From the IMG/VR virus record IMGVR_UViG_3300036832_000035, positions 1-25,826 of that record: a DNA stretch of 25,826 bases; one strand, given 5' to 3'. The notes beneath the pieces were generated by a model. It worked only from the letters and a program-made list of their open reading frames with translations, was not told where the DNA came from and searched no databases. The translations under genes and the position numbers were made by a program. Source of the stretch: a virus. Every line of letters begins with the position of its first letter. Within the stretch, counting starts at the first letter, position 1. This document shows positions 2-22,746 of this stretch, piece by piece.

Positions 2-1042
2 GCGAGGAAGACAACTAGTGTCCAGAATGCTACGCGCATTGTGCGTAGCATGCTGGCTCATTACCCTGAAATACTACTCATGGACGCGAAGATTACGCCA
101 GAGAAGCTAGAGGAAGAACTGCAAGACCACACACACGAGTACGGCAGTGCACAGTGTTGCATGTCATCGTCAGAGCTTGCCGTGATGCTTGGCACAGAGC
201 ACTACATCAAGCACATGCCAACACTGCTCACCGAATTGTACGACTGCCCTGCTGCACGAGACAGTGGTGGCACCATTGCACGCGGTGCCATAAGCCTACG
301 CAACGTATGGCTCACACTGCTCGCTGCATCCACGCCCATCTGGCTACTCAAGACAGTCAACCCTAACGTTGTCGAGGGCGGCTTCACATCACGCTGTTAC
401 TTCATTGTAGCCAACGATCCGAAGCACGCTATCCCCTGGCCTACTGAGTCTGACCCAGCACTGTATGATGATCTGTGTAGTGACCTGCGTATCATAGCAC
501 AAGAGGCTCGTAAGCAAGGACCGATCCTGCTAACGGATGATGCCAAGGAACACTTCATCCACTGGTACAACGGGCGTGAGCGCTCTATCAACACATTCAA
601 GCAATCGTTCGAGAGCCGTGAGGATGCACATGTGTTGCGTGTTGCAGCACTCATGGCCATCAACGACGGATCATGGTTCATCGACACTGCACACATCGAG
701 TATGCAATCCTGCTGCTGCACGATGTCAAGACACGAGGCGATAGTATCTTCGACGAGGCTGAGGCTCAATCTAAGTTCTCGATTGGCCTAGACAAGATGC
801 GATCTGTGCTCATCAGTTCAGGCATGGATGCCATGCTACACGGTCAGCTATTCAGGCAGTGTAGGATGCACCTGTCTACTGTCGAGTTTGCAGCACTGCT
901 CGAAGTGCTACATGAGATCGGCGCCATACAGCGGTTCAGCATGAAGTCAGAAGGTGGCAAGCGTAGCGAGTATGTGCGTGGCACACAGCTACTCATGTCT
1001 CGTGAGCTTGGCACTACAGTCCTAGAGAAGTTCACTCGTTGA
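2..1042 (+). CDS. DUF3987-type primase/helicase-associated replication protein, C-terminal part (cut by left edge)
   Basis: This is the only convincing + strand gene. The frame is open to the first base; 346 residues are visible and the true start lies outside. The first residues, ARKTTSVQNATRIV, followed by a DAKITPEKLEEEL stretch, look like the region after the P-loop in DUF3987 (YfjI-like) proteins, usually written RKTTA...TPEaL. About residues 55-135 carry the rest of that pattern: an SSELAVMLG segment, LLTELYDCP, ISLRNVWLTLLAASTP and a GGFTSRCYFIVAN segment. The last 100 residues look like a helical domain plus winged helix. DUF3987 proteins are linked to phage and plasmid DNA replication, often fused to or beside a primase domain; the N-terminal part would be needed to show this here. 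The frame ends in TGA inside the 3' end of the convergent late operon. Family call is good; exact role is inferred. Confidence 0.75.
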   Translation, partial: ARKTTSVQNATRIVRSMLAHYPEILLMDAKITPEKLEEELQDHTHEYGSAQCCMSSSELAVMLGTEHYIKHMPTLLTELYDCPAARDSGGTIARGAISLRNVWLTLLAASTPIWLLKTVNPNVVEGGFTSRCYFIVANDPKHAIPWPTESDPALYDDLCSDLRIIAQEARKQGPILLTDDAKEHFIHWYNGRERSINTFKQSFESREDAHVLRVAALMAINDGSWFIDTAHIEYAILLLHDVKTRGDSIFDEAEAQSKFSIGLDKMRSVLISSGMDAMLHGQLFRQCRMHLSTVEFAALLEVLHEIGAIQRFSMKSEGGKRSEYVRGTQLLMSRELGTTVLEKFTR

Positions 1043-1052
1043 ACTGATCTGG
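1022..1052 (+). promoter_or_regulatory. Hairpin at the convergent gene ends, possible weak terminator
   Basis: AGTTCA (1029-1034) and TGAACT (1040-1045) form a perfect 6-bp stem around a 5-nt loop CTCGT. After a tandem G-A/A-G mismatch (27-28 against 46-47) a second stem of 5 pairs follows (1022-1026 with 1048-1052, one G-U). The tandem GA mismatch is stabilising only in + strand RNA. The structure sits exactly over both stop codons. It has low G+C and only a weak U-rich tail (UCCUUGCUUCC), so termination is uncertain. Confidence 0.3.
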
Positions 1053-4000
1053 TCCTTGCTTCCAGTTGATGTGTGCCACATCTACATGCTTACCGACCAT
1101 CTTACTCAGCCCAGCGTTCAGGTCTTCGATGCGCGACTGTATGTAGCCATACTTGTCAGCTATCACACGTGCACCTTCATTGTGAAACTGACGCTTCTCT
1201 TCGATGCTGCCAACGTGATCTGCTACCGTAGCCATCTGCTTCTTCAGTGCCATGATGTCAGGCATCACGTGTGACTGTATGAAGTTGTACTCGGCTGCTG
1301 TAGCAAAGAACATGTTACGCATGGTCGGATCAGTTGGCACCTTGCCTTCACCACCACCTTGATCTGGCACTTCTAGTGGGCGTGGTCCACCAGTCGTTCC
1401 TTCGTAACGCTCAGCAGACTTGTTGCCTGCTGTCGGTTTCATCATGTCAAGCTGCTTTGATACTGCCTCTACAATAGGTGGCCGCACACTAGCACGTATT
1501 GGGTTCTCCCACAGGACATGGTTGAGCATTGGATTGTTATCCATTGCGTCCTGTAGCCAATCTCTGCCTACTTGACCAAGTGCCTCATGCCAGTCACCTG
1601 TCTGGTTGTAATACTTATTGAACTGTAACGGTGCATCAAGTGCAGCACCTGCTATACCAAAGAGATTAGAGAACAGCAAGCTCCACTTCTTTCCATCGGC
1701 TGCATCGAGTGCAGTGTCGCCAGGAGCTTGGTTAGGCAACGGATGGTCAGTGCCAGCAGGCTGTGCAAACGTGTCGAACGATATACCGCCATGCTGGTAG
1801 TCATCGAGTATGCGATCTAGGTCGAGTCGCACAGTCTTGCCGGTGACCGGACCACTAATTGCATTCACCGCTGGTGGTACATCTGCGATGTTGAGTGCAT
1901 CAGCTAGTGCATGCTGTGTGCTACGCACTGTGCTATTCTCAATATGCTCAGAGAACCAGTCCTTCAAGAAGCCTAGTATGCTATCATGCACTTCTGGATC
2001 ATGTGGTGCAGCGGCAAGGTTGATCGCCTTACTGATAATGTCCAGCATTGGTGCATACGGTAAGCGATCCTCTTGTGACATTGAGAACATGGTTGCAAGT
2101 GATGGATCAGGCCCATTGAATATGTATGCGTTCCCCTCTCGCCCCTGCGTGGAGATCATGTTCTGCAAGTAGTTCAGTGTCTCAGGATGCTGCATGGCAG
2201 TATAGATCGACAGCAGTGCAAGACTGCCAACGCTGCCTGCCCATGCTGCGGACGTGCCTACTGGTGTATCCTTGAGAGCTTGACCACGACGTGCCAAACC
2301 TTGTGCTGACACGTTCGCGTACGGTACATAGCCACGCACCTGCGCCACAGCCGAACCACCACCATGTATGCCAGGGTCGCCAGTGATCGCTCGCGTCTCA
2401 TACGCACGTGTAGCCGCATCACCTGTGTTAGCAAAGTTGTTGAGCCTGTAGTAGTAGTCATGTGATGCATCACTCATCTTGGTGAAGATCTGATCCACTG
2501 CGTCCTGCAAGCGTATGTATCCTGGCTTTATTGTCCCTAGCTTGCCACCGCTCAAGAACAGCCTAGGCGATAGCTGACTAGACATAGAGCGTATGCGCTG
2601 GCCCTCACCACCTACATACGCAGGCAGTCGTAGACGATACGGGACGCTCGATCCACCTACACCTTCTGCTGCTTTCTGGTAAGTTGTCGTGCCAAGGTAG
2701 TACTTCTTCAGTGCAGCACTGATTGAGTCCATCACTTGTGGTGTGACTATGCTCTTCACAGTCTGTGTGGCTACGCCTGTATTGGTCTTGTCGAACAGGT
2801 TAGATAGCTTCAGCATCGTGTCGTCGAAGCCAGTGCGTGCTGCGCTGTATGCAGCTCCAGGCAAGTTCGTCGGATCGATGCCACGATAGCCTAGCCGTCC
2901 GCCTGTAGCTTTCTGCATACCGTAGTCTAGCAAGCCACCAACTCTGCCAGCCTCACGGTTGATCGGCAACTGGAACGCAGTGCGTGCTGCATTGACCAGC
3001 GGGAACATGCGTCCACGCAGCAGAGCTAATGCGCCTGTCGTGCCTGCTGACACAGTGCGACGTGTGATGGTTGCTGCATCGAACATCGTCTTCATCTTGT
3101 TGGCGTTCGCGTTCGTCAGCATGTCGTATACGTCGTGGTTGTTAATCTTGTAGTAGTCAACCCCTGTTGGGCGACGCACTGTGATCGTGCGCTCAGTTCC
3201 TGGTGTCGATGCTGCGGTGTTCACTCCTTGTGTTGGTGAGCTTGCTCCTGGCCTGACACGTTCTACTATCTTAGCAGCTTGTGGATTGTTGGCCTGGAAT
3301 GTCTCGATGTGATCTAGTATCTTAGAGCGCATCGTATTCACTTCTATCTGATGCTGCATCTTCTCAAGATACTGAGACAGCGACTCCCATGCGGATGACG
3401 TGACTTGCTTAGCACCACCACCTGCTGCATAGTTACGTGCCTCTAGCACGTTCATGATGTTGCCGTCAGCACCAACTGTCGGCACATAGTTCGGGTGCGT
3501 AGTACGTAGGTACTGAGCTTCACCGGGTGTGTAGAAGCCTTGTGCCTCACCTACATCAACTATGCGTCGTGTGATCGTGCCATAGCGATCAGCCAAGTTG
3601 GCGATCAGCGGATCACGTTGTGCGTTGACGATGATACGTGCAAGGTCTTGATCTGACTGGTCACTGAACTTGAAGCGTGCAGGCTGTGTGCCTTGCGTCT
3701 GCATGTATGCACGGTTGTTCATCTCATCTTGTGCATGCAGCATGTCGTTGAGCGTCTTCTGACCTGTATCAGATAGCCGTCCGATGTCATCGAATAGACG
3801 CTTCGGTGCAGGCATGAACAGCTTGGTCGCGTAGTCAACCCCTGTGTTTAGGAACGCACGCATCTTCGGCTGTTGTGCGGCATCGTTCATAAGGATGCCG
3901 TACTCTTTGGCCAACCGCTCACCTGCCTGCGGTGTCTGAGCAGTCATCTTAATCAGGTCTTGTAGCTGTGCAGTGTGGTCGAGCACATTCGTCTCAGCAG

Positions 4001-5075
4001 CCACAGCAGCAGTATGCACTGCGTTGCCCTGTGGTATCGGTGCCTCTACAGTCTTACCGAACTGTGGGCCAGATACCTGCGAGCCTTGTGCAGCAATCTG
4101 TGCTGCTTGGAAGTCAGCAGCCTTCTGTGCATACGCAGGATCAGCAAGACGTGCTGCACGCGCAGTAGCGGACATCTCCTGACCAATGCCAAGCATACGC
4201 TTGCCTGCCATACCAGCCAGGAGGATGCCACCAGCAGCAGCCAACCAGCCACCTACAGTGCCAGGACTCTCACCGAGTTGGCTGAATGTAGGTGCAGGTT
4301 GTGGTGCTGCTTGTCCACTAATGATCTTGTCGAGTGCATCACCTATCGACGTAGGTGGTTGTGTGCCGACATCAGTTGGTACTGGTGGTGCAGTAGTTGG
4401 TGTTGGTGGCGTAGCACCTGTTGGTGCAGCAGGAGACAGCGCATCGCCCAAGCCAGGGATTGTCTGCACATCAGGATGATCTTTCTCGTATGCAGACGTG
4501 ACACCAGATGCAACTGCTGATATAGGCGCATTAGTCATGAAGTGCTCAGCAGTTGGCACCACAACCTTAGCTGGACCAGAGACAATAGACGGCAGCTTCG
4601 ATAGCATAGCAGTCATACCGGGCACATACATGCCACCTGCACTGAATGCATAGTCATGCAGCCGTTGCTCTGTCTCGTTCTCGGCGAGCTTGTCTGTCGG
4701 TATCAGTTCCTTAGCAAGCCTGCTCGTATCTGCATACTGACGCTGCATCTCTTCTGCACCAGGAGCAGCAGGCAGGTTAGTCTGATAGCCTAGCTGCTCA
4801 GCACCTTTGTTGATTAGCCACGGGACAGTGCTACCTACACCACCGTAGATTGAGCTAACAACACCAGGGACTGTTGGCTCTAGGTTGCCTTGGTCATCAC
4901 GACCAACAGGCATCACCTGTGCAAGTGCACCGGGCGCTAGGCTCGTAAGCGCAAGTGGTAGGCGCACTTGCAGGCGTTGGTAGTCGTCATACCCGGCCTC
5001 ACCCGGCTTAGGTGGACCGGGCGGTAGCGGTATGTCCTTTATGTTACCTGGATAGAAGGCGTCTAACCAACTCAT
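1032..5075 (-). CDS. Large (1347 aa) LPD38-like polyvalent protein, probable internal/ejected virion protein
   Basis: This is the last and longest gene of the late block. Visible parts in order: a proline-rich N-terminus (about 15-30); a helical region; a Pro/Thr linker (about 215-245); a hydrophobic Gly/Ala/Leu stretch (273-295); a long mainly helical core (about 360-720) with the segment EAQGFYTPGEAQYLRTTHPN near 510-530; and near 917-960 the segment VPYANVSAQGLARRGQALKD followed by a hydrophobic stretch. This last part resembles the end of LPD38 domains of phage large polyvalent proteins, which have a pattern like pFfNa..qGl.r..ra...nP. No protease, lysozyme or RNA polymerase motif was found. 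Its length and its place after the tail-tip genes suit an internal protein ejected with the DNA, as for the large core proteins of podoviruses. The start overlaps the upstream stop (ATGA). Function is inferred. Confidence 0.6.
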   Translation of the reverse strand: MSWLDAFYPGNIKDIPLPPGPPKPGEAGYDDYQRLQVRLPLALTSLAPGALAQVMPVGRDDQGNLEPTVPGVVSSIYGGVGSTVPWLINKGAEQLGYQTNLPAAPGAEEMQRQYADTSRLAKELIPTDKLAENETEQRLHDYAFSAGGMYVPGMTAMLSKLPSIVSGPAKVVVPTAEHFMTNAPISAVASGVTSAYEKDHPDVQTIPGLGDALSPAAPTGATPPTPTTAPPVPTDVGTQPPTSIGDALDKIISGQAAPQPAPTFSQLGESPGTVGGWLAAAGGILLAGMAGKRMLGIGQEMSATARAARLADPAYAQKAADFQAAQIAAQGSQVSGPQFGKTVEAPIPQGNAVHTAAVAAETNVLDHTAQLQDLIKMTAQTPQAGERLAKEYGILMNDAAQQPKMRAFLNTGVDYATKLFMPAPKRLFDDIGRLSDTGQKTLNDMLHAQDEMNNRAYMQTQGTQPARFKFSDQSDQDLARIIVNAQRDPLIANLADRYGTITRRIVDVGEAQGFYTPGEAQYLRTTHPNYVPTVGADGNIMNVLEARNYAAGGGAKQVTSSAWESLSQYLEKMQHQIEVNTMRSKILDHIETFQANNPQAAKIVERVRPGASSPTQGVNTAASTPGTERTITVRRPTGVDYYKINNHDVYDMLTNANANKMKTMFDAATITRRTVSAGTTGALALLRGRMFPLVNAARTAFQLPINREAGRVGGLLDYGMQKATGGRLGYRGIDPTNLPGAAYSAARTGFDDTMLKLSNLFDKTNTGVATQTVKSIVTPQVMDSISAALKKYYLGTTTYQKAAEGVGGSSVPYRLRLPAYVGGEGQRIRSMSSQLSPRLFLSGGKLGTIKPGYIRLQDAVDQIFTKMSDASHDYYYRLNNFANTGDAATRAYETRAITGDPGIHGGGSAVAQVRGYVPYANVSAQGLARRGQALKDTPVGTSAAWAGSVGSLALLSIYTAMQHPETLNYLQNMISTQGREGNAYIFNGPDPSLATMFSMSQEDRLPYAPMLDIISKAINLAAAPHDPEVHDSILGFLKDWFSEHIENSTVRSTQHALADALNIADVPPAVNAISGPVTGKTVRLDLDRILDDYQHGGISFDTFAQPAGTDHPLPNQAPGDTALDAADGKKWSLLFSNLFGIAGAALDAPLQFNKYYNQTGDWHEALGQVGRDWLQDAMDNNPMLNHVLWENPIRASVRPPIVEAVSKQLDMMKPTAGNKSAERYEGTTGGPRPLEVPDQGGGEGKVPTDPTMRNMFFATAAEYNFIQSHVMPDIMALKKQMATVADHVGSIEEKRQFHNEGARVIADKYGYIQSRIEDLNAGLSKMVGKHVDVAHINWKQGPDQFNE

Positions 5076-6100: not shown

Positions 6101-7175
6101 ACCACGTCACGCCCTTATAGGCTGGATCGTTTGCTGTAGTGTTCTCCCAACCAGATACAGTGTTGGCTGCATTAGTGCGTGCCGTAGGACTACTACCAGA
6201 ACCAAACAGTGCACTGATTAGATCATTGCCTGAGCCTCCCTTGCCAAACGCAGTGCCCAAGTCTTTCAACCCAGACACTGCTTGGTTCAGTCCGAAGTTC
6301 GGATCAGGCACAGTGCTACGTGCAGCATTGAAGCCAGCACCAGCGATGTTCGCTGCATTGTTCGGTCCAGCCGCACCAGCAGCAGTCGTGTATGCTGCGT
6401 TACCAGCACGCTGCGCCACCAACTGTGCCAACGTAGAGTTGGCAGTACTCGGTGTCAGTGCAGTTGTGCCAAGGTTCGGTGTTGCCAAGCTAGATGCATT
6501 GACTGCTGCGTTCTCTAGCCCAGCACGCTTCGACTGATTGATCTGGTCAGTGCTGGTCATAGCAGAGATGAGATTGTCACGCATCGAGTTACGCAAGTTC
6601 TGTGCCTCGCCGAGTCCAAGCTGTGCCAGGATCGGTGCCGCTGCTGTACCTGTCCGTGCAACACTACGCAACGTGTCAGCACGCAATGGATCATACGCTT
6701 GTCTGTTGGCCTCAGTAGATTGCTGTGTCAGCAAGCCAACAAGGTCGCCATACGACTTGGGCCTGAACGTAGACAGGTCACGAACCGCAGCATCGGCAAC
6801 AGGACTGGCAAGTGCAGCACGACGCATAGCCTGCTGATTGACTAGCTCTTGGTTCTGTAAATCAGTCGTGTTGCGTGTGATGCCTGCTTGCATTGCAGCA
6901 GTGTCAGACGCTTTGGGCAAGTCACCTAGATCAGTGACCCACTGATTAGTAGCTGGATCATACTTGACAGTTGTGCCGAATGAGTCCTGTGAACCAGCAA
7001 CAGCACGCTGATTGACCAGCGCCTGCACCAACTGCTGGTTACGCATGTTGTTGTAGTCAAGGTCAAGCTGTGCTTGCGAGTAAGAGTTCGCGCCAGTGTT
7101 CTGCTGGCGGCCCATGCCCATTGCAGCACTGCCAAGCGAAGCAACCGCAGCAATGGTTGGTGCAATCCAAGCCAT
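6099..7175 (-). CDS. Putative internal virion protein, 358 aa
   Basis: The N-terminus (residues 2-21, WIAPTIAAVASLGSAAMGMG) is a short hydrophobic Ala/Gly segment of the sort found at the start of many podoviral internal or ejection proteins. The rest is rich in Ala, Gln, Asn and Thr, with long predicted helices (for example SYSQAQLDLDYNNMRNQQLV) and no cysteine. No enzyme motif was seen. It starts with TGATG coupling to the GNAT gene upstream and ends 10 nt before the next start. It could belong to the ejected core set with its two downstream neighbours. The family name cannot be given from sequence alone. Confidence 0.6.
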   Translation of the reverse strand: MAWIAPTIAAVASLGSAAMGMGRQQNTGANSYSQAQLDLDYNNMRNQQLVQALVNQRAVAGSQDSFGTTVKYDPATNQWVTDLGDLPKASDTAAMQAGITRNTTDLQNQELVNQQAMRRAALASPVADAAVRDLSTFRPKSYGDLVGLLTQQSTEANRQAYDPLRADTLRSVARTGTAAAPILAQLGLGEAQNLRNSMRDNLISAMTSTDQINQSKRAGLENAAVNASSLATPNLGTTALTPSTANSTLAQLVAQRAGNAAYTTAAGAAGPNNAANIAGAGFNAARSTVPDPNFGLNQAVSGLKDLGTAFGKGGSGNDLISALFGSGSSPTARTNAANTVSGWENTTANDPAYKGVTW

Positions 7176-7621
7176 CAGTTGAGTTCCTTCATGTATGAGA
7201 CTTCAATCTTCTTGAAGCCCATCTTCTCGAACAGCGGCTCAGTATCATAGATCAGTCTGTGTTGATGCACAATGTGTGTTACACCCATTGCCCTGAAGAG
7301 GCTCATGGCCGCTTCGACTAGAAAACGCCCAACAGCTTTGCCACGTGCCTCTAGCCGTACACCAATCATGTCACATTGTGCAATGCGTTGGTTTGCATGG
7401 TGCATGTGATCGTAGATTAGATAGAGAGCAAAGCCGTCTAGCTGCGCTTCACGACTTGTGAACAGGAAGCATGAGCCTGCACGCTCCATTGCTGCATAGC
7501 GTGTCCAGTTGATCTGTAGCTCAGACATGCCATCTGATGCATTGCTACGTGCATAGTAATCACGTACTAGTGCATCGCACTCAGCCCATACATCACCATG
7601 CAGTGTGTCGAGCGTAATCAT
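7175..7621 (-). CDS. GNAT-family N-acetyltransferase (first of two)
   Basis: This 148-aa protein is the usual length for a single GNAT domain. The acetyl-CoA pyrophosphate loop is visible as VRLEARGKAVGRFLVEAA (88-105), with R93-G94-K95-x-x-G98 matching the family R/Q-x-x-G-x-G/A pattern. The C-terminus EPLFEKMGFKKIEVSYMKEL (128-147) matches the GNAT end motif (Y/F-x-k-x-GF). Acetyl transfer from acetyl-CoA to an amine is the expected reaction; the substrate is unknown. It is coupled by TGATG on both sides to virion-protein genes, so it should be made late. Targets could be a virion protein or a host protein. The fold call is strong; the role is open. Confidence 0.8.
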   Translation of the reverse strand: MITLDTLHGDVWAECDALVRDYYARSNASDGMSELQINWTRYAAMERAGSCFLFTSREAQLDGFALYLIYDHMHHANQRIAQCDMIGVRLEARGKAVGRFLVEAAMSLFRAMGVTHIVHQHRLIYDTEPLFEKMGFKKIEVSYMKELN

Positions 7622-8760
7622 CAGAACGCACCCTGATTACCCAGTCCACGCTTACGTTGTTCTTCTTCGTCAGGTGCTACGAATGCACTCGACGTGCCAC
7701 CAACTGCACCCGCTGGGTTGGCTGCTGTCGGGTTGTTCGCTCCCTGTGCTGCACCACCAGCGCTAATCAGGTCAGTGATGTCAGCAAACTTAGAACCACC
7801 AACTGCATTGCGTAGTGCACCACCGAAGTCAGACAGGTCTGTGTTGACCATGCCAGATGCACGTGTCGTATACGTGCTGGGATCGAATGCACCACCAAGC
7901 GTCAGGTTGTTCACGTCACTGCGTGCACCGCTAATGAAGTCGTCAAGGGCTGACCGATCACTGCTCAGGATGCCACGTCCTAGGTTGCCAACAGTGCTTG
8001 TTGCTGCATCCTTCTTCTGGTTCAGCGAAGCAAGTGCACTGTTGTATCCTACATCAGTCAGTGTGCCACGCTTCTGTGCATTAGTTAGCTGCTGCATCAG
8101 CGGATCGAACTGCTCGTTCACGATGTCAGACACGTACTTGCCTGTCGTGTCATCAGGCAATACAGTAGATGAATAGGTCGGCGCGAAAGTCGAGTTCAGG
8201 GTGTTCAGCGCTGTAGTGCGTCTATCACCTGTTGCCGAATTGAGGATCGTATCACCGAGCGTAGTCGGGAACGCAGCATACGGATTCGGGTCCAAATCCT
8301 GTATGGAGTTCTTCTGTCGATCCAGCATTGGCTTGATGTAGCTGTCCATGTATGCATTCGGATCAACACCGGCACGCTGGAACGATGCTATCGTAGAAGT
8401 CAGTGCATCGTTATATGCTTTGTCACGTGTGCCTTGGAACGTAGTCTCAGCAGTGGCTGCCTTCGTGTCAGACGCTGCCTTTGCAGCATCACTGTCAGAC
8501 TTCTCCTGTGCCTTACGCTGATTGATCTCAGCGTTCAGCTTGTCTGAACCTGTCTGTGTTGGTCCAAGCGTATAGCCCATCGAGCCATCAGCCTGTGGAC
8601 CATACGAGTATCCAACGTCATCAGTGAACGACATGCCGTTGACAGGATCAGTGTACACCTGTGGCTTGGACGGTGCCTGCTGTTGACCACCACCACCTTT
8701 ACCCCCGCCGCGCACACCAGCGAACGTGAGATGATCGACTTGTCCACCGGGAGTAAACAT
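7621..8760 (-). CDS. Putative virion protein, 379 aa, between two acetyltransferase genes
   Basis: Family not recognised. The N-terminus is glycine-rich (GVRGGGKGGGGQQQAPSKPQ, residues 17-36 counted from the preferred ATG). It is followed by an aromatic Gly-rich patch (DDVGYSYGPQADGSMGYTLG), a Lys/Ala/Asp-rich helical stretch (about 77-130), a mixed core and an acidic/basic end (APDEEEQRKRGLGNQGAF). ATG at 8760 is chosen over GTG at 8763 because it lies in TGATG with the upstream stop and has a GAGG-like site at suitable distance. No cysteines or enzyme motifs were seen. Its composition matches the other putative internal proteins to its left. Whether it is a substrate of the flanking acetyltransferases is speculation. 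Confidence 0.6.
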   Translation of the reverse strand: MFTPGGQVDHLTFAGVRGGGKGGGGQQQAPSKPQVYTDPVNGMSFTDDVGYSYGPQADGSMGYTLGPTQTGSDKLNAEINQRKAQEKSDSDAAKAASDTKAATAETTFQGTRDKAYNDALTSTIASFQRAGVDPNAYMDSYIKPMLDRQKNSIQDLDPNPYAAFPTTLGDTILNSATGDRRTTALNTLNSTFAPTYSSTVLPDDTTGKYVSDIVNEQFDPLMQQLTNAQKRGTLTDVGYNSALASLNQKKDAATSTVGNLGRGILSSDRSALDDFISGARSDVNNLTLGGAFDPSTYTTRASGMVNTDLSDFGGALRNAVGGSKFADITDLISAGGAAQGANNPTAANPAGAVGGTSSAFVAPDEEEQRKRGLGNQGAF

Positions 8761-9230
8761 CACACGTCCCTCTGATACTTGTAGATTGAGCCGAACCGCC
8801 TGAAGCCAAGATGCCGATAGATGTTATCGACTGCGAAGCTGTCTATGTCAGCGATGTCACCTGACTGCACTTGCGTTGCGTGCTTCTCATCTAGTGCCCA
8901 CGCCACGAACTGGCGCATAAGCATCACTGCTGCCTTCGTCCGCTCAGGTGAGCCAGGACGCACGAACCACGCATCCTCAATCGCACCGTTCTTTGGCGAG
9001 AAGAAGAATGGCTCGACGTGCCCGACCACTGCACCTGTGTACTGTCCATCTACCTTTGCCAACCTGAAGCAGTAGTCATCGTTCTTGATTACACGGATCA
9101 TCACCTTCAGTGTATGGTCCCAATCGAACACTGGTCCTATGCGACCATACACACCAAGCTCGTGCAACTCCTTAGCCAACTGCGTAGCATACGGCACTGT
9201 CTCAAACACCAGTGGCTCAATCTCAATCAT
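8760..9230 (-). CDS. GNAT-like N-acetyltransferase (second of two), divergent
   Basis: This is a 156-aa GNAT-like protein. The central strands are visible (YCFRLAKVDGQYTGAVVGHV, 53-72), then IEDAWFVRPGSPERTKAAVM (84-103) in the acetyl-CoA-loop position, then a helix (LMRQFVAWAL), and the typical end NIYRHLGFRRFGSIYKYQ (136-153). The loop is not canonical: the usual R-x-x-G-x-G/A reads RPGSPERT, so cofactor binding may be altered. It is clearly different from the first GNAT gene and is not a recent duplicate. It overlaps the upstream 56-aa gene by 8 nt and the downstream gene in TGATG. The substrate is unknown. Confidence 0.7.
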   Translation of the reverse strand: MIEIEPLVFETVPYATQLAKELHELGVYGRIGPVFDWDHTLKVMIRVIKNDDYCFRLAKVDGQYTGAVVGHVEPFFFSPKNGAIEDAWFVRPGSPERTKAAVMLMRQFVAWALDEKHATQVQSGDIADIDSFAVDNIYRHLGFRRFGSIYKYQRDV

Positions 9231-17838: not shown

Positions 17839-17843
17839 CTCCT
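17839..17843 (-). promoter_or_regulatory. Shine-Dalgarno site that decides the start at 17832
   Basis: AGGAG on the minus strand overlaps the TAG stop of the capsid gene (TAGGAG) and is 6 nt from the ATG at 17832. The same arrangement occurs before the start at 6088. Confidence 0.6.
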
Positions 17844-18810
17844 AATTCGTCAACACGCCATGCGTGCGATATGCGCGCCACAGACACCACTGGCCCTGCC
17901 ACACTACACGACTGCCAACCGCGTCTACGTTCCACGGTGCAACAAGCTCCTTCACCTTCATGTTGACACCGCGCAGCATGTGCAGACGCAGATACGTGTC
18001 ATTGATGAAGTAGGCATACGACACCGGACAGTCCTCATCATACAAGATGGGGATGCCATTGTGCAGCACGCCCTCGAAGCCAAGATCGAACATGCGCTTG
18101 CCAGCCTTACCCTCTGACAGCGGTATGGTCATCTTGTCGCGCACAGCCTGACGATACATGCGGTAGATGTTGCGTCCTGCCAGGATGACGCTTGGCTTGT
18201 CGCCTTTCAGCGTCAAGTCCATGAGCACGTCATCGAACACTTCTTCGATGTTCGTGCTATCCATTCCACCGGCAAAGATATAGGCTGAAGTACGCCACTG
18301 TGGTTGGGTCGCACGGTTGATACCGCCAAGTGTACCAACTGTCGGGTTCGTGGGCAGCACACTGCCCAGCCCGAGAGGGTCCGTGCCACCGCCTACTGCA
18401 TACAAGTACTGAGAGAACTTGTCCTTGAGGCTCTCCTCAAGGACGTTCATCTTTTCCTTCATCAGCTTGAAGATAGCAGCAGCACCGTTGTTCTCGTCCT
18501 GCTCCTGGTCAGAGATGATGACTGAGCCAGCGACGCGCGAGTAACCATACTCAACCGTGTCGAACTCATCAGTCTGATTGACCGGCAGTGGCATGTAGTA
18601 GTTGTACGACGTGACGTTGGGGTTACGCCCAACAGTCAACGGGTTGGTGATGTTGTAACCACCATCCTCGTACTCCACTCGATCATTGCTGAACACCCAC
18701 GCCATGAGCGCGTTCGACTTGATGCTCGCCATTACCAGCTTACGTCTACTCTTCGTCAACGTGCTGTGCAGAACATCTGCAACAGCGGGGATGATTGTAC
18801 CGACAGGCAT
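17842..18810 (-). CDS. Major capsid protein (HK97-type fold expected), 322 aa
   Basis: The length is usual for a phage major capsid protein, and it directly follows the scaffold gene. Recognisable segments: GYNITNPLTVGRNPNVTSYN near residues 50-70; a helical spine-like region (AAIFKLMKEKMNVLEESLKD); GTLGGINRATQPQWRTSAYI, close to the 'GGInrat.p.Wr' motif seen in many capsid proteins; KPSVILAGRNIYRMYRQAV; and FEGVLHNGIPILYDEDCP, typical of the A-domain end ('G..i.yD.dcp'). A good ribosome-binding site (GGAG, 18817-18820) precedes ATG at 18810, as expected for the most abundant virion protein. It forms the icosahedral shell. Confidence in the role is high; the exact family was not checked. Confidence 0.88.
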   Translation of the reverse strand: MPVGTIIPAVADVLHSTLTKSRRKLVMASIKSNALMAWVFSNDRVEYEDGGYNITNPLTVGRNPNVTSYNYYMPLPVNQTDEFDTVEYGYSRVAGSVIISDQEQDENNGAAAIFKLMKEKMNVLEESLKDKFSQYLYAVGGGTDPLGLGSVLPTNPTVGTLGGINRATQPQWRTSAYIFAGGMDSTNIEEVFDDVLMDLTLKGDKPSVILAGRNIYRMYRQAVRDKMTIPLSEGKAGKRMFDLGFEGVLHNGIPILYDEDCPVSYAYFINDTYLRLHMLRGVNMKVKELVAPWNVDAVGSRVVWQGQWCLWRAYRTHGVLTN

Positions 18811-18821: not shown

Positions 18822-19874
18822 CTAGTTAAGTTGACCACCACTCTCTTGCATCGCACTGCGAATGATGTCCGCCCACGATGCGTTCTCGCTGAACTGCTGC
18901 GGATTAGCTGCACCGTTCATACGAGCGGTGCCTGCTTGGTTCACACTGCGACGAGTTGGCAGTGGGCGCGTTTCAACTTGTGGCTGGGGAGTAGTCTGCT
19001 GTTGGCGCAGCGCGGCAATCTGTGCCTTTAGTGGCTGCGTCCAATCGAGGCCGTTCTCGTGCGCCCAACGAATCATCTTCGTATAGGCAGACTGAAGCGG
19101 CAGGCCCGGCTGAGCCTGCAACATTTCGCCGAGCACGTCAAGGTTTGCGTTGGCTTCTTGGTTCTCATCGATGAACGTACTGAGTTCCTGCTCTGCCGCC
19201 TGCCGCATCCTCACCTGTTGTGTCTGCTGCGCGTGCTGGTTCGTTATCGGGTGCAGCTTAGCATCGATCATGCGAGACAACGCCTGCATGTCCATGCCCG
19301 GACTTACACCTTCAGTGAGGAACGGTATCTGGTAGCCCTTGCTCTTAACTTCCTCAACAAGCCCTTGCAGTGTCCTTACCGGATCACGCATGAAGTCAGC
19401 CATCACACGTATGGCTATCTTCTGATCTTCTGGCTGCACGCCAAGCCTTGCTGCCTCTTGCAACACTTCACCGCTCGAACGCAACGCACCTTCTAATCCA
19501 GTCACACGCTGCTTGAGTGTGTTGTTCTCACGCATCGTGCGCTGACTGTCCTCGAAGATGCGACGCTCGATGCCACCTTGTGCAACAACTCTCCCACTAA
19601 CCGGATCAACTAGATCACGGGTATTAGGATTGTTGGGGTTGGGCTGTTCGATGAGTCCGTCGTGTCTACGCCTAACAGCGCCTTGCGGAGTACGTTGTGC
19701 TGCGCTGCCAGCAGTATCCGCTTGTGTAGGTTGGGCTGAGGATCGACCTTCACTACCGGAACCCTCACTGCCTTGCGTGCCGCTGCCAGCCGGTGCGCTC
19801 GTCTCTTCGCTACCACCGCTATCCTCCTGAAAGTCAGGGATATGACTAAGTATGCTGTCTTCTGTTCCGCTCAT
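18822..19874 (-). CDS. Scaffolding protein, 350 aa
   Basis: Just upstream of the capsid gene lies a helical, hydrophilic protein with an acidic, Gly/Ser-rich N-terminus (ILSHIPDFQEDSGGSEETSA). It has a coiled-coil-prone region (EDSQRTMRENNTLKQRVTGL, about 108-127, then LEGALRSSGEVLQEAAR), a Gln-rich helix (NQHAQQTQQVRMRQAAEQEL) and a C-terminal helix (ASWADIIRSAMQESGGQLN). This matches phage scaffolds, which guide shell assembly and leave before maturation; their C-terminal helix often binds the capsid protein. No protease motif is present. ATG at 19874 lies in TGATG with the upstream stop and is preferred over the GTG one codon earlier. Confidence 0.82.
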   Translation of the reverse strand: MSGTEDSILSHIPDFQEDSGGSEETSAPAGSGTQGSEGSGSEGRSSAQPTQADTAGSAAQRTPQGAVRRRHDGLIEQPNPNNPNTRDLVDPVSGRVVAQGGIERRIFEDSQRTMRENNTLKQRVTGLEGALRSSGEVLQEAARLGVQPEDQKIAIRVMADFMRDPVRTLQGLVEEVKSKGYQIPFLTEGVSPGMDMQALSRMIDAKLHPITNQHAQQTQQVRMRQAAEQELSTFIDENQEANANLDVLGEMLQAQPGLPLQSAYTKMIRWAHENGLDWTQPLKAQIAALRQQQTTPQPQVETRPLPTRRSVNQAGTARMNGAANPQQFSENASWADIIRSAMQESGGQLN

Positions 19875-20059
19875 CACACAAGTCCTTTATCCGTAGCCAA
19901 CCACATTGGTAGGGTTACTTCCTTCGCGTCTTTGTCCCATTCGCATTGGGACTTAGGAAGCCACACATGTTCTTCTTTGCCAATGTCGAACTTGTATGCT
20001 TTCTCTGTCTCGCCAACCAATGTTGCAGCTAGATCGACAAGCTCTTTCTTTATATTCAT
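19874..20059 (-). CDS. Small phage protein with VWLPKSQ / LPxWLAxxKGL motif, 61 aa
   Basis: The frame could extend to 20092. ATG at 20059 is preferred because it overlaps the upstream stop as ATGA. The product starts with a short helix and continues with AYKFDIGKEEHVWLPKSQ (21-38) and VTLPMWLATDKGLV (48-61). Small proteins with this 'vWLPkSQ...lP.WLA..KGLi' ending occur in many phages, often near other small genes; no function is established as far as I know. It sits between the Acb2-like gene and the scaffold and overlaps both. Confidence 0.65.
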   Translation of the reverse strand: MNIKKELVDLAATLVGETEKAYKFDIGKEEHVWLPKSQCEWDKDAKEVTLPMWLATDKGLV

Positions 20060-20247
20060 TGCGTGATCCCTTTCACTGCCCACATGACACATTGCTCAAG
20101 GCTTGTGACAGCCAATGCTTTGTATCGTGGATCAGGTACGTTCTCCAAGTCTGCAAGCATCCTACCTGCGGCTGCTTTGATACTGCGTATTGCCAGCTTC
20201 TCTTCTGTGCTAAGCACACGATACTCTTCGCGGAACGGATCACTCAT
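20056..20247 (-). CDS. Acb2-like protein, candidate cyclic-oligonucleotide sponge, 63 aa
   Basis: This is a two-helix protein. Helix 1 is about residues 13-35 (STEEKLAIRSIKAAAGRMLA). A short turn DPR (39-41) leads to helix 2, KALAVTSLEQCVMWAVKGIT (43-62). The second helix closely follows the Acb2/Tad1 hairpin pattern, R...A(L/V)T.LE.a.mWa..aI: A46, T48, L50, E51, M55, W56, A57 and I61 are in place. Acb2 proteins of phages assemble into oligomers that bind the cyclic di- and trinucleotides made by CBASS, and so block the abortive response. Acb2 proteins are usually somewhat longer, about 65-100 residues. The assignment is by motif only; binding residues were not checked. ATGA overlaps tie it to both portal and the 61-aa gene, so it is made with late proteins. 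Confidence 0.65.
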   Translation of the reverse strand: MSDPFREEYRVLSTEEKLAIRSIKAAAGRMLADLENVPDPRYKALAVTSLEQCVMWAVKGITQ

Positions 20248-22556
20248 GCTACTTGACCTTGTGGTGCTTGCCCACCGGGTGGCGCACCACCATGTGCCTG
20301 TGACGCAAGCAATTGCTGGAATATCTGCGCTGGTGGCACGCCTTGTGCTAGTGCGCTACCAATCGCTTGTAGAACAGGTGGTGGCAACTGCTGCATTGCT
20401 TGAACAATGGTTGCGAGCATACCACCACCTGCCGGTGGTGCACCGGGCGCACCGCCAGCCATGGGCTGTCCTGGGGGAGGCGCACCACTAGGCATGCCGG
20501 GCGCACCGGGAGCACCGCCTTGCTGTGACTGAGCCATCTTCTGCACTTCTGCATCGATGCTATCCCAGTCTTCCTTACTGATGATAAAGTCGTCGAACGC
20601 TTTGCTAAGCATGTTCAACGACACCTTGAGTGCAGTAGCAGGCGCAGCCCTCACGTACTGTGCCAACATCTGACCGACCTGCACTGCCTCTTGCTTCTTC
20701 TGCTGCGTAGTCAGCTTCTGCGTGCTGCCACCAACTATAGTCAGTGACATACGTGCGAAGTCCTGCAAGTTATCCAACGGACGCCAGAACGGTGTCACAT
20801 CCATGCCAACCAACGCTGTCGCAGTGTCTGCATCCATGAAGCGCATGCACAACTGCGCTAGCTTCCAACCTACATCTCCCAGCGCGTCCTCTAGTGCATC
20901 GAGGCGCATGTCCATACGCAAGTTGCCCATCGTGCTATAGTAGTCGATGGCTTTGTTCGTTGTGTTCGTCTTGAACTCGCCACCGCGCTCTATCTCATTC
21001 GTGGACGCAATACGGTCGATGATCTTGTACAGATCAGCCTTGTCGAACAACTGCGTAAAGCCCATGCTCGGTGGAGCAATGGAGAAGATCATCTTCTGTG
21101 GGTCTACACCCTCTGGCACGTCCAGCGGTGTTGCAGTTGCGTCAGGCCCTTTGAGTATCTGCTCAACAGTCTCCTGTGTCAGACCGGAGTTCTTGTTATA
21201 GAAGATATTACGCCGCGCCCAAAGCAGTGCTCTACGACGCTCATCGTTGATCTCGTTAATTTGGTCCTGTTGATCGAGATAATAGCTGACTTCTCCCTTG
21301 GCGTACAACGCGGTGGGACTATCGTGGAACCACATCGGAGTGAGAGGATAGAACCCCTGTAGTTGATAAGGATCGTCCCATACCCAAATCGGCCATTTCC
21401 AATCGTTGTCTGCATACATCTCCAGCCGACGTGTCACCTTGTCCCACACATACCAGACCTTGGTGAGACAGGCTTTGTCGAACGCCTCCTGTGTCTCAAA
21501 CCCATACGCATTGTAGCTGTTGTCATCATGCTTGAACAACGTGAACTCATCGTCACCGCTGACACTGCTACCACTGTTCAACACATGCGTTGGCTCGAAG
21601 ATGGACACGTTCTCATCACTGTCCTCATCCTCCATCGCATAGATCGCATTGATGTACTCAGTCGGCAGCATGTCCTCAATCATCATCCAGTTGCAGTCAC
21701 TGAGATACGGATCAGTGCTGTTCGGATCACGCAACACCTGATGCGGCATCCTAATACGCACATACGGACCGCTAGGCTGTAGGAACTCTACCTTTTCCTC
21801 CAACGCAGTAAGCTGTCCTTCTATCTCTCTGATCTCCTCAGCATCCGCTGCCTGCTCAAGCTGTGCAGACAGATCAACCAAGTTCTGCACTGCCTGCTCA
21901 CTGCTCTTGTCCTTCTGTGTGTACCCAACCTCGAACCACGCCATGTTGGTCAACAACGCTATGACTACGTTCTTCTTGGCCTTGGTCTTGATGTTCACAC
22001 CGGGTGGATACTTCATGCTGAACAGTGCATTGATTAGCTTCTGCAATGCACGTGCCAGTGTATCACCAACCTCCTGATCGCCAGGGTTCTGGCTCGGCTC
22101 AGTGGTCACAGACACAACAGGGTTCTTGGCATAAAGCTCAGGCACCTGTGCATTGACATTAGCGAACACTACGTTCTCAGTGCTAGTGTTCAGTTCATTC
22201 AGTCGTCGAGCAAGATAGCGATTACCAGATACACTGCCACCCCCACCGCGACGACCACTATTACCAGCGCCCGTTCCATCTCTGTGGTCCTGCTGGTCCA
22301 TGTTGTAGTAGCGTATGGCTTCATCCCATGCATCGATTAAGTTCTGCATGGACTTCTGTGCTGTATCCTTTCTACTCTTCCACACACCACCACGTTTGTT
22401 AGACACAGGTATCCTGCTGTCAGGCATTGCCTTGTACACTGGCGGTGCAATAGGCTCCGCAGGCAGACCAACACCTGCCTGATCCAGCGAGTTCTCTAGC
22501 GGATCATCCTGTGGTGCTGCTGCAATCGGATCGCCGTCTTCATACGTACCGCTCAT
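20244..22556 (-). CDS. Portal protein, 770 aa
   Basis: This large protein lies between terminase and scaffold, with portal-like segments: RYLARRLNELNTSTENVVFA, ANVNAQVPELYAKNPVVSVT, a long charged helix (NLVDLSAQLEQAADAEEIRE), YVRIRMPHQVLRDPNSTDPY, GEVSYYLDQQDQINEINDER followed by RRRALLWARRNIFYNKNSG, and IDRIASTNEIERGGEFKTNT. The last two resemble the stem and crown helices of podoviral portals (P22 gp1-like). The C-terminal 130 residues are Gly/Pro/Ala/Gln-rich (GGAPGAPGMPSGAPPPGQ), probably flexible. It forms the dodecameric DNA gate at the capsid vertex. ATG at 22556 is preferred over the in-frame start at 22595, which lies inside the previous gene: GGTGAG stands just before the ATG and the gap is 4 nt. 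Confidence 0.85.
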   Translation of the reverse strand: MSGTYEDGDPIAAAPQDDPLENSLDQAGVGLPAEPIAPPVYKAMPDSRIPVSNKRGGVWKSRKDTAQKSMQNLIDAWDEAIRYYNMDQQDHRDGTGAGNSGRRGGGGSVSGNRYLARRLNELNTSTENVVFANVNAQVPELYAKNPVVSVTTEPSQNPGDQEVGDTLARALQKLINALFSMKYPPGVNIKTKAKKNVVIALLTNMAWFEVGYTQKDKSSEQAVQNLVDLSAQLEQAADAEEIREIEGQLTALEEKVEFLQPSGPYVRIRMPHQVLRDPNSTDPYLSDCNWMMIEDMLPTEYINAIYAMEDEDSDENVSIFEPTHVLNSGSSVSGDDEFTLFKHDDNSYNAYGFETQEAFDKACLTKVWYVWDKVTRRLEMYADNDWKWPIWVWDDPYQLQGFYPLTPMWFHDSPTALYAKGEVSYYLDQQDQINEINDERRRALLWARRNIFYNKNSGLTQETVEQILKGPDATATPLDVPEGVDPQKMIFSIAPPSMGFTQLFDKADLYKIIDRIASTNEIERGGEFKTNTTNKAIDYYSTMGNLRMDMRLDALEDALGDVGWKLAQLCMRFMDADTATALVGMDVTPFWRPLDNLQDFARMSLTIVGGSTQKLTTQQKKQEAVQVGQMLAQYVRAAPATALKVSLNMLSKAFDDFIISKEDWDSIDAEVQKMAQSQQGGAPGAPGMPSGAPPPGQPMAGGAPGAPPAGGGMLATIVQAMQQLPPPVLQAIGSALAQGVPPAQIFQQLLASQAHGGAPPGGQAPQGQVA

Positions 22557-22560
22557 GTGC

Positions 22561-22746
22561 TCACCAGTGATATAGGCCGAAGTGCGGCCCACCAATCAGA
22601 CCGAACAGAAGCAACAGCACAAGCACCAACAGAATTATGCTGATCGGGTTATATCCAGGTGCAGGCACTCCACCAGCACCATAGTACCAAAAGCCACCAC
22701 CACCAACGAGCACGATGATAAGCAGCACGACTAGGATCACGCCCAT
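22561..22746 (-). CDS. Two-helix membrane protein, DUF3309-like, 61 aa
   Basis: Two hydrophobic segments are plain: GVILVVLLIIVLVGGGGF (2-19) and SIILLVLVLLLLFGLIGG (36-53). They are joined by an aromatic Gly/Pro loop (WYYGAGGVPAPGYNP), with a short tail ending HFGLYHW. This resembles DUF3309, small two-helix proteins common in proteobacteria and their phages. Holin or pinholin activity is possible on size and topology, but there is no lysis gene beside it. It starts in TAATG with the large terminase stop. Membrane location is well supported; the role is not. Confidence 0.65.
   Translation of the reverse strand: MGVILVVLLIIVLVGGGGFWYYGAGGVPAPGYNPISIILLVLVLLLLFGLIGGPHFGLYHW

Follow-up and report, generated by a model that had tools for sequence, protein, structure and literature searches.

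What is an open reading frame of only 63 codons doing in the middle of the virion genes of an uncultured virus? The record in question, which we analysed over its whole length of 25,826 bases (referred to here as the window), contains a minus-strand run of virion genes in the order small terminase, large terminase, portal, acb2-like ORF, phrog_8389 gene, putative scaffold and major head protein, with a tail fibre and other genes further downstream (Table 1). The ORF starts with ATG, and its product is MSDPFREEYRVLSTEEKLAIRSIKAAAGRMLADLENVPDPRYKALAVTSLEQCVMWAVKGITQ. We find that it is a real member of the Acb2 family, for which family and mechanism were already known; what is new is its behaviour as a single-gene cassette at a variable portal-scaffold junction.

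Results

Genomic setting

An ATGA overlap between the portal gene and the acb2-like ORF, pointed out in a first-pass annotation of this DNA, is indeed present, and a second ATGA links the ORF to the gene that follows. The same annotation had placed the ORF between portal and scaffold. This holds on the portal side, albeit by weak profile matches (phrog_156 and phrog_12082 portal, 1.6e-7; P22_portal, 4.2e-5), but on the other side the phrog_8389 gene intervenes before the scaffold gene, which itself had no profile match. As for the proposed expression from the late operon, the position of the gene agrees with co-expression with the late head genes and suggests a transcript shared with them, and hence late synthesis. 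A search for a local acb2 promoter found none, the best promoter-like site upstream being a weak one at 20608, inside the portal gene.

Table 1. Features at and around the acb2-like gene (window coordinates)
Feature	Position	Strand	Basis
acb2-like gene, compact Acb2 hairpin protein (PF24729), 63 aa	20056..20247	-	Pfam, PDB profile search, AlphaFold2, Foldseek
ATGA overlap, portal stop / acb2 start	20244..20247	-	sequence; translational coupling inferred
ATGA overlap, acb2 stop / start of next gene	20056..20059	-	sequence
portal protein gene, upstream neighbour, boundary of insertion	20244..22595	-	weak profile matches
phrog_8389 small gene, function unknown, 61 aa	19874..20059	-	phrog_8389, E 1.2e-14
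putative scaffold gene	18822..19877	-	position before major head protein; conserved in relatives
major head protein gene	17842..18810	-	phrog_9953, E 1.6e-48

Elsewhere in the window, the late run includes two acetyltransferase-like genes, at 7175-7621 (minus strand; PF00583 GNAT, 1.3e-6) and 8760-9230 (minus strand; phrog_1249 acetyltransferase, 1.6e-16). A 1347-residue protein encoded at 1032-5075 (minus strand), without a match in Pfam or PHROGs, is possibly an internal virion protein.

Family membership

Compared with Pfam-A, the 63-residue protein matched one family confidently, PF24729 (Acb2/Tad1 hairpin; E 7e-15), with 55.4 bits against a curated cut-off of 27, and PF24729 was also the sole Pfam family matched by all 65 aligned relatives. 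The motif on which the first-pass annotation had based its assignment to the Acb2/Tad1 hairpin family, a turn at D39-P40-R41 followed by A46-V-T-x-L-E-x-x-x-M-W-A-x-x-x-I61, is found in the ORF, and the assignment itself is borne out, with profile, structure and pocket residues favouring Acb2 over Tad1. In PHROGs, the protein matched phrog_1454 (9e-9) and, weakly, phrog_717 (0.029), the group in which homologues of T4 Vs.4 have been described (PMC10097602). A profile built from nine phage homologues retrieved Acb2 structures from the PDB most strongly (8h2j, 1e-10; 8ixz, 3e-10), then T4 Vs.4 (7uq2, 1e-7) and 'Acb2 homolog 43' (9ptq, 4e-7), and Tad1 chains more weakly (3e-4), so that the profile search proposed as a check did return the hairpin family, in Pfam as well as in the PDB. 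Profiles were needed for this: with the single sequence, phmmer yielded only a weak Tad1 match in the PDB, and a viral scan with the lone protein recovered no relatives. Neither PADLOC nor NCBIfam held a model matching the protein, and no isolated phage matched the region by megablast.

Relatives of the protein are widespread: IMG/VR yields at least 422 matches, isolated phages 87 records when the threshold is loose, and bacterial genomes 35 contigs, whose best matches are most often alphaproteobacterial. Even the nearest relative found shares only about 56% identity with the protein. One carrier of an Acb2-like gene, Dunaliella viridis virus SI2 (L003; class Caudoviricetes), is listed with a green alga as host but probably infects a bacterium.

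Such compact proteins form an ordinary subgroup and are not peculiar to the present phage: 16 of the 80 relatives measure 59-71 residues, and the start MSDxFRxxYRxL is common to a subset of relatives. The residues missing relative to T4 Vs.4 and PaMx33-type Acb2 belong to the inter-helix region, away from the Tyr and Lys that contact cGAMP. The earlier suggestion that the short length may signal an altered choice of ligand is therefore weak and finds no support here; one pocket residue does differ, Phe82 of Vs.4 being Thr62, but PaMx33-type Acb2 has likewise lost this Phe.

Fold and pocket

With the 65 aligned relatives as input, AlphaFold2 modelled the protein at a pLDDT of 93.7, with helices at 14-34 and 40-62, in line with the two-helix protein described in the first-pass annotation. 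Y9 sits in the loop preceding the first helix, and the model thus combines the antiparallel helices and the tyrosine loop of Acb2. The first eight Foldseek matches in the PDB were Vs.4 and Acb2 (8h2j, TM 0.81, rmsd 1.6 A), followed by Tad1 in ninth place (TM about 0.42); this comparison, which had also been proposed earlier, therefore matches the predicted fold best to Vs.4 and Acb2. The E-values were weak (0.1-0.3) because a hairpin of 63 residues is a small fold. In BFVD, the top eleven structure matches were all named Acb2/Tad1 hairpin proteins.

In T4 Vs.4, cGAMP is touched by Y8, H11, K23, R79 and F82, and hexamer formation requires L29, A66, A73 and A77 (PMC10097602). The 63-residue protein has Y9, L12, K24, K59 and T62 at the former positions, and M30, A46, C53 and A57, all small or hydrophobic, at the latter, M30 being assigned from the ungapped helix-1 register after K24, where the automatic alignment gaps helix 1 of Vs.4. 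The Tyr, Lys and Arg/Lys of the pocket (Vs.4 Y8, K23 and R79) are thus present as Y9, K24 and K59, which rank 10, 4 and 15 in conservation out of 63 positions. Across the 65 relatives, the nine pocket and interface positions together are far more conserved than random positions (permutation P about 5e-5), as are the five ligand positions alone (P 6.5e-4), while the four interface positions alone reach a P of only 0.05. The second base-stacking aromatic residue, F82 in Vs.4, is replaced by T62; since a Phe of this type is missing from PaMx33-type Acb2 as well, it is a trait of Vs.4 and does not define the family. R41 and T48, candidate residues of a trinucleotide site, are invariant or nearly so within the clade. 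T48 corresponds to T68 of Vs.4, whose replacement by Met (T68M) is reported to weaken binding (PMC12657230).

A single-gene cassette at the portal-scaffold junction

We gathered close relatives of the phage by their portal (63-92% identical) and major head protein (87-99% identical). None of their 72 distinct portal-to-head-protein junctions contains an acb2 homologue. In 61 of them no more than 74 bases separate the portal end from the scaffold start; the remaining 11 have a small gene between portal and scaffold. The nearest relative, L093, has a head protein 99% identical to that of the present phage and a portal end with 90% DNA identity over 1 kb, and in it a phrog_8389 gene (91% identical) is joined to the portal gene by a single ATGA, without acb2. 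Because the flanks are the same and directly joined in L093, exactly one gene was either gained in the present phage or lost in L093, and because all 72 junctions of the relatives are without acb2, gain is the simpler reading. The acb2-like gene thus looks like a precisely inserted, recently exchanged accessory cassette. It has not simply moved to another location in the relatives, as far as 50 of their records, which may be partial, allow one to see: a whole-record search that does find the acb2 of the window found none in them. In unrelated phages, acb2 homologues often adjoin packaging or head genes, and some in other phages adjoin lysis or DNA-metabolism genes.

The phrog_8389 gene is itself variably present, occurring among the relatives only in L093 and L121, and is an accessory gene too. 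We considered it as a partner of acb2 and rejected this, as only 2 of the 34 records with acb2 also have it. The small genes at the 11 occupied junctions include relatives of phrog_8389, a WDGH-domain protein and several proteins without any family; where inspected, such genes are translation-coupled, and most have no known family. Small accessory genes were seen at this junction in L103, L119, L124, L131, L135, L143, L147, L165 and L199. The WDGH-domain protein occurs in two of the relatives (L124:2250-2620 and L143:7340-7700; PF25311, 7.7e-11 for the L124 protein). Two others encode a stand-alone protein of 130 residues (L119:6160-6660 and L147:5240-5710) with the motif (R)P-V-V/K-x-N-x-D-G-S-x-STVRS...VLIPTV...G-x-F-DTPxxA, a motif known from larger phage virion proteins.

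Discussion

We interpret the protein, with a probability of roughly 0.8, as a compact Acb2 that most likely forms a homohexamer sequestering the cyclic di- and trinucleotides of CBASS, coupled to the late operon and encoded by an exchangeable cassette at the portal-scaffold junction. By analogy with T4 Vs.4 and PaMx33-type Acb2, the 63-residue protein, presumably translated from the head-gene transcript via translational coupling, would assemble into a homohexamer that binds, without cleaving them, cyclic di- and trinucleotides made by CBASS CD-NTases. Kept from their effectors (phospholipases, nucleases and membrane-disrupting proteins), the sequestered nucleotides would then leave abortive infection untriggered. 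Vs.4 binds cGAMP with a Kd of about 30 nM, as a hexamer with three cGAMP (PMC10097602), and PaMx33-type Acb2 binds dinucleotides plus, at separate sites, trinucleotides (reviewed in PMC12043709); ligand binding, hexamer formation and an anti-CBASS effect may be expected of the present protein by the same analogy. An anti-defence role is in keeping with a gene that comes and goes as a one-gene cassette. A cost is also conceivable, as the Panoptes defence fires when sponges remove decoy nucleotides (PMC12657218, PMC12657230), and a sponge-carrying phage would risk triggering it; we speculate that this risk could explain why one phage has acb2 while its sisters do not.

Could the protein instead serve the virion or a different defence system? 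Its place within the head operon, with ATGA overlaps on both sides, and the frequent proximity of homologues to packaging and head genes would suit a small capsid protein with a role in structure or assembly. However, acb2 is missing from the 72 distinct junctions of close relatives, with head proteins up to 99% identical, which makes it dispensable for the same virion; moreover, the pattern of conserved residues is that of a ligand pocket, not of a generic coiled coil, and homologues in other phages lie beside lysis or DNA-metabolism genes. Given that close relatives lack the gene, we reject the structural reading and regard it as very improbable. A Tad1-like sponge that binds gcADPR and acts against Thoeris, a role also raised in the first-pass annotation, draws on the common Pfam family and on the weak similarity of the hairpin to the C-terminal helices of Tad1 (3e-4). 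The N-terminal beta-sheet of Tad1, however, belongs to the architecture with which it binds its signal (PMC12043709), and the present protein, with only 63 residues that are all helical after the loop, is a hairpin without this domain; its Foldseek TM is about 0.42 to Tad1 compared with 0.81 to Acb2. With the N-terminal domain missing, we reject an identity as Tad1, find the anti-Thoeris role unsupported and consider this the least probable of the readings.

Two further alternatives retain the Acb2 fold and concern what it binds. A degenerate or non-binding hairpin, retained by chance, has in its favour that the nearest homologue, only about 56% identical, is too distant to gauge selection; the ORF is intact, however, its coupling is in frame, its key residues are all in place, and its absence in relatives points to a recent gain, so that we hold this for highly unlikely. 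A protein with another or a narrower ligand preference, such as one that binds cyclic trinucleotides only or avoids the triggering of Panoptes, deserves somewhat more credence but is still unlikely. It is suggested by two replacements in the dinucleotide pocket (Phe82 by Thr and His11 by Leu), by the constancy of R41 and T48 in the clade and by the selection that Panoptes exerts against dinucleotide-sequestering sponges (PMC12657218); against it, Y9 and K24 are retained, and PaMx33-type Acb2, likewise without the Phe, still binds cGAMP.

The Acb2 described here is seen as an exchangeable one-gene cassette within an otherwise conserved virion operon, which offers a fixed genomic spot where comparing relatives might reveal further small anti-defence genes, and its compact form gives a handle on how small a cyclic-oligonucleotide sponge can be and still work. 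The portal-scaffold junction may be a hotspot for small genes with accessory or counter-defence roles. More tentatively, it is possible that in this clade of soil phages the junction serves as a hotspot of ATGA-coupled one-gene swaps, with acb2 as one of several unrelated cassettes, the others being candidate counter-defence genes, and with a compact Acb2 that may have a shifted ligand range. If this is true, the unnamed cassettes, such as the genes in L119, L131, L165 and L199, would be candidates for undescribed counter-defence proteins.

Comparison with known systems

Of the characterized sponges, T4 Vs.4 (7uq2) shares with the present protein the hairpin fold, the Tyr-x14-Lys spacing of the pocket, the MWA motif of helix 2 and small, alanine-type residues at the interface, but it is longer (88 residues), with a longer inter-helix region, and its pocket residues Phe82 and His11 are Thr62 and Leu12 in the 63-residue protein. 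PaMx33-type Acb2 (8h2j, 8ixz) aligns without gaps from the tyrosine loop into helix 1 (GYRDLSxEE...K and EYRVLSxEE...K, pairing Y11/Y9, R12/R10 and K26/K24) and also matches at R67/R41 and T74/T48; unlike the present protein, it has about 93 residues, with some 25 extra between the helices, and its helix 2 lacks the Trp. Acb2 homolog 43 (9ptq) is similarly short, with a chain of 76 residues, and aligns over the hairpin region, although the match is confined to residues beyond the N-terminal Tyr loop. The likeness to Tad1 (8kbb, 7uav) is confined to a C-terminal hairpin of the same Pfam family, next to an N-terminal beta-sheet domain of its own. A close parallel in setting is gp37 of Sinorhizobium phage Aussie, annotated as hypothetical, which is 41% identical over the whole length and likewise lies within a head-tail gene module, but has 78 residues, an N-terminal extension and belongs to another type of phage.
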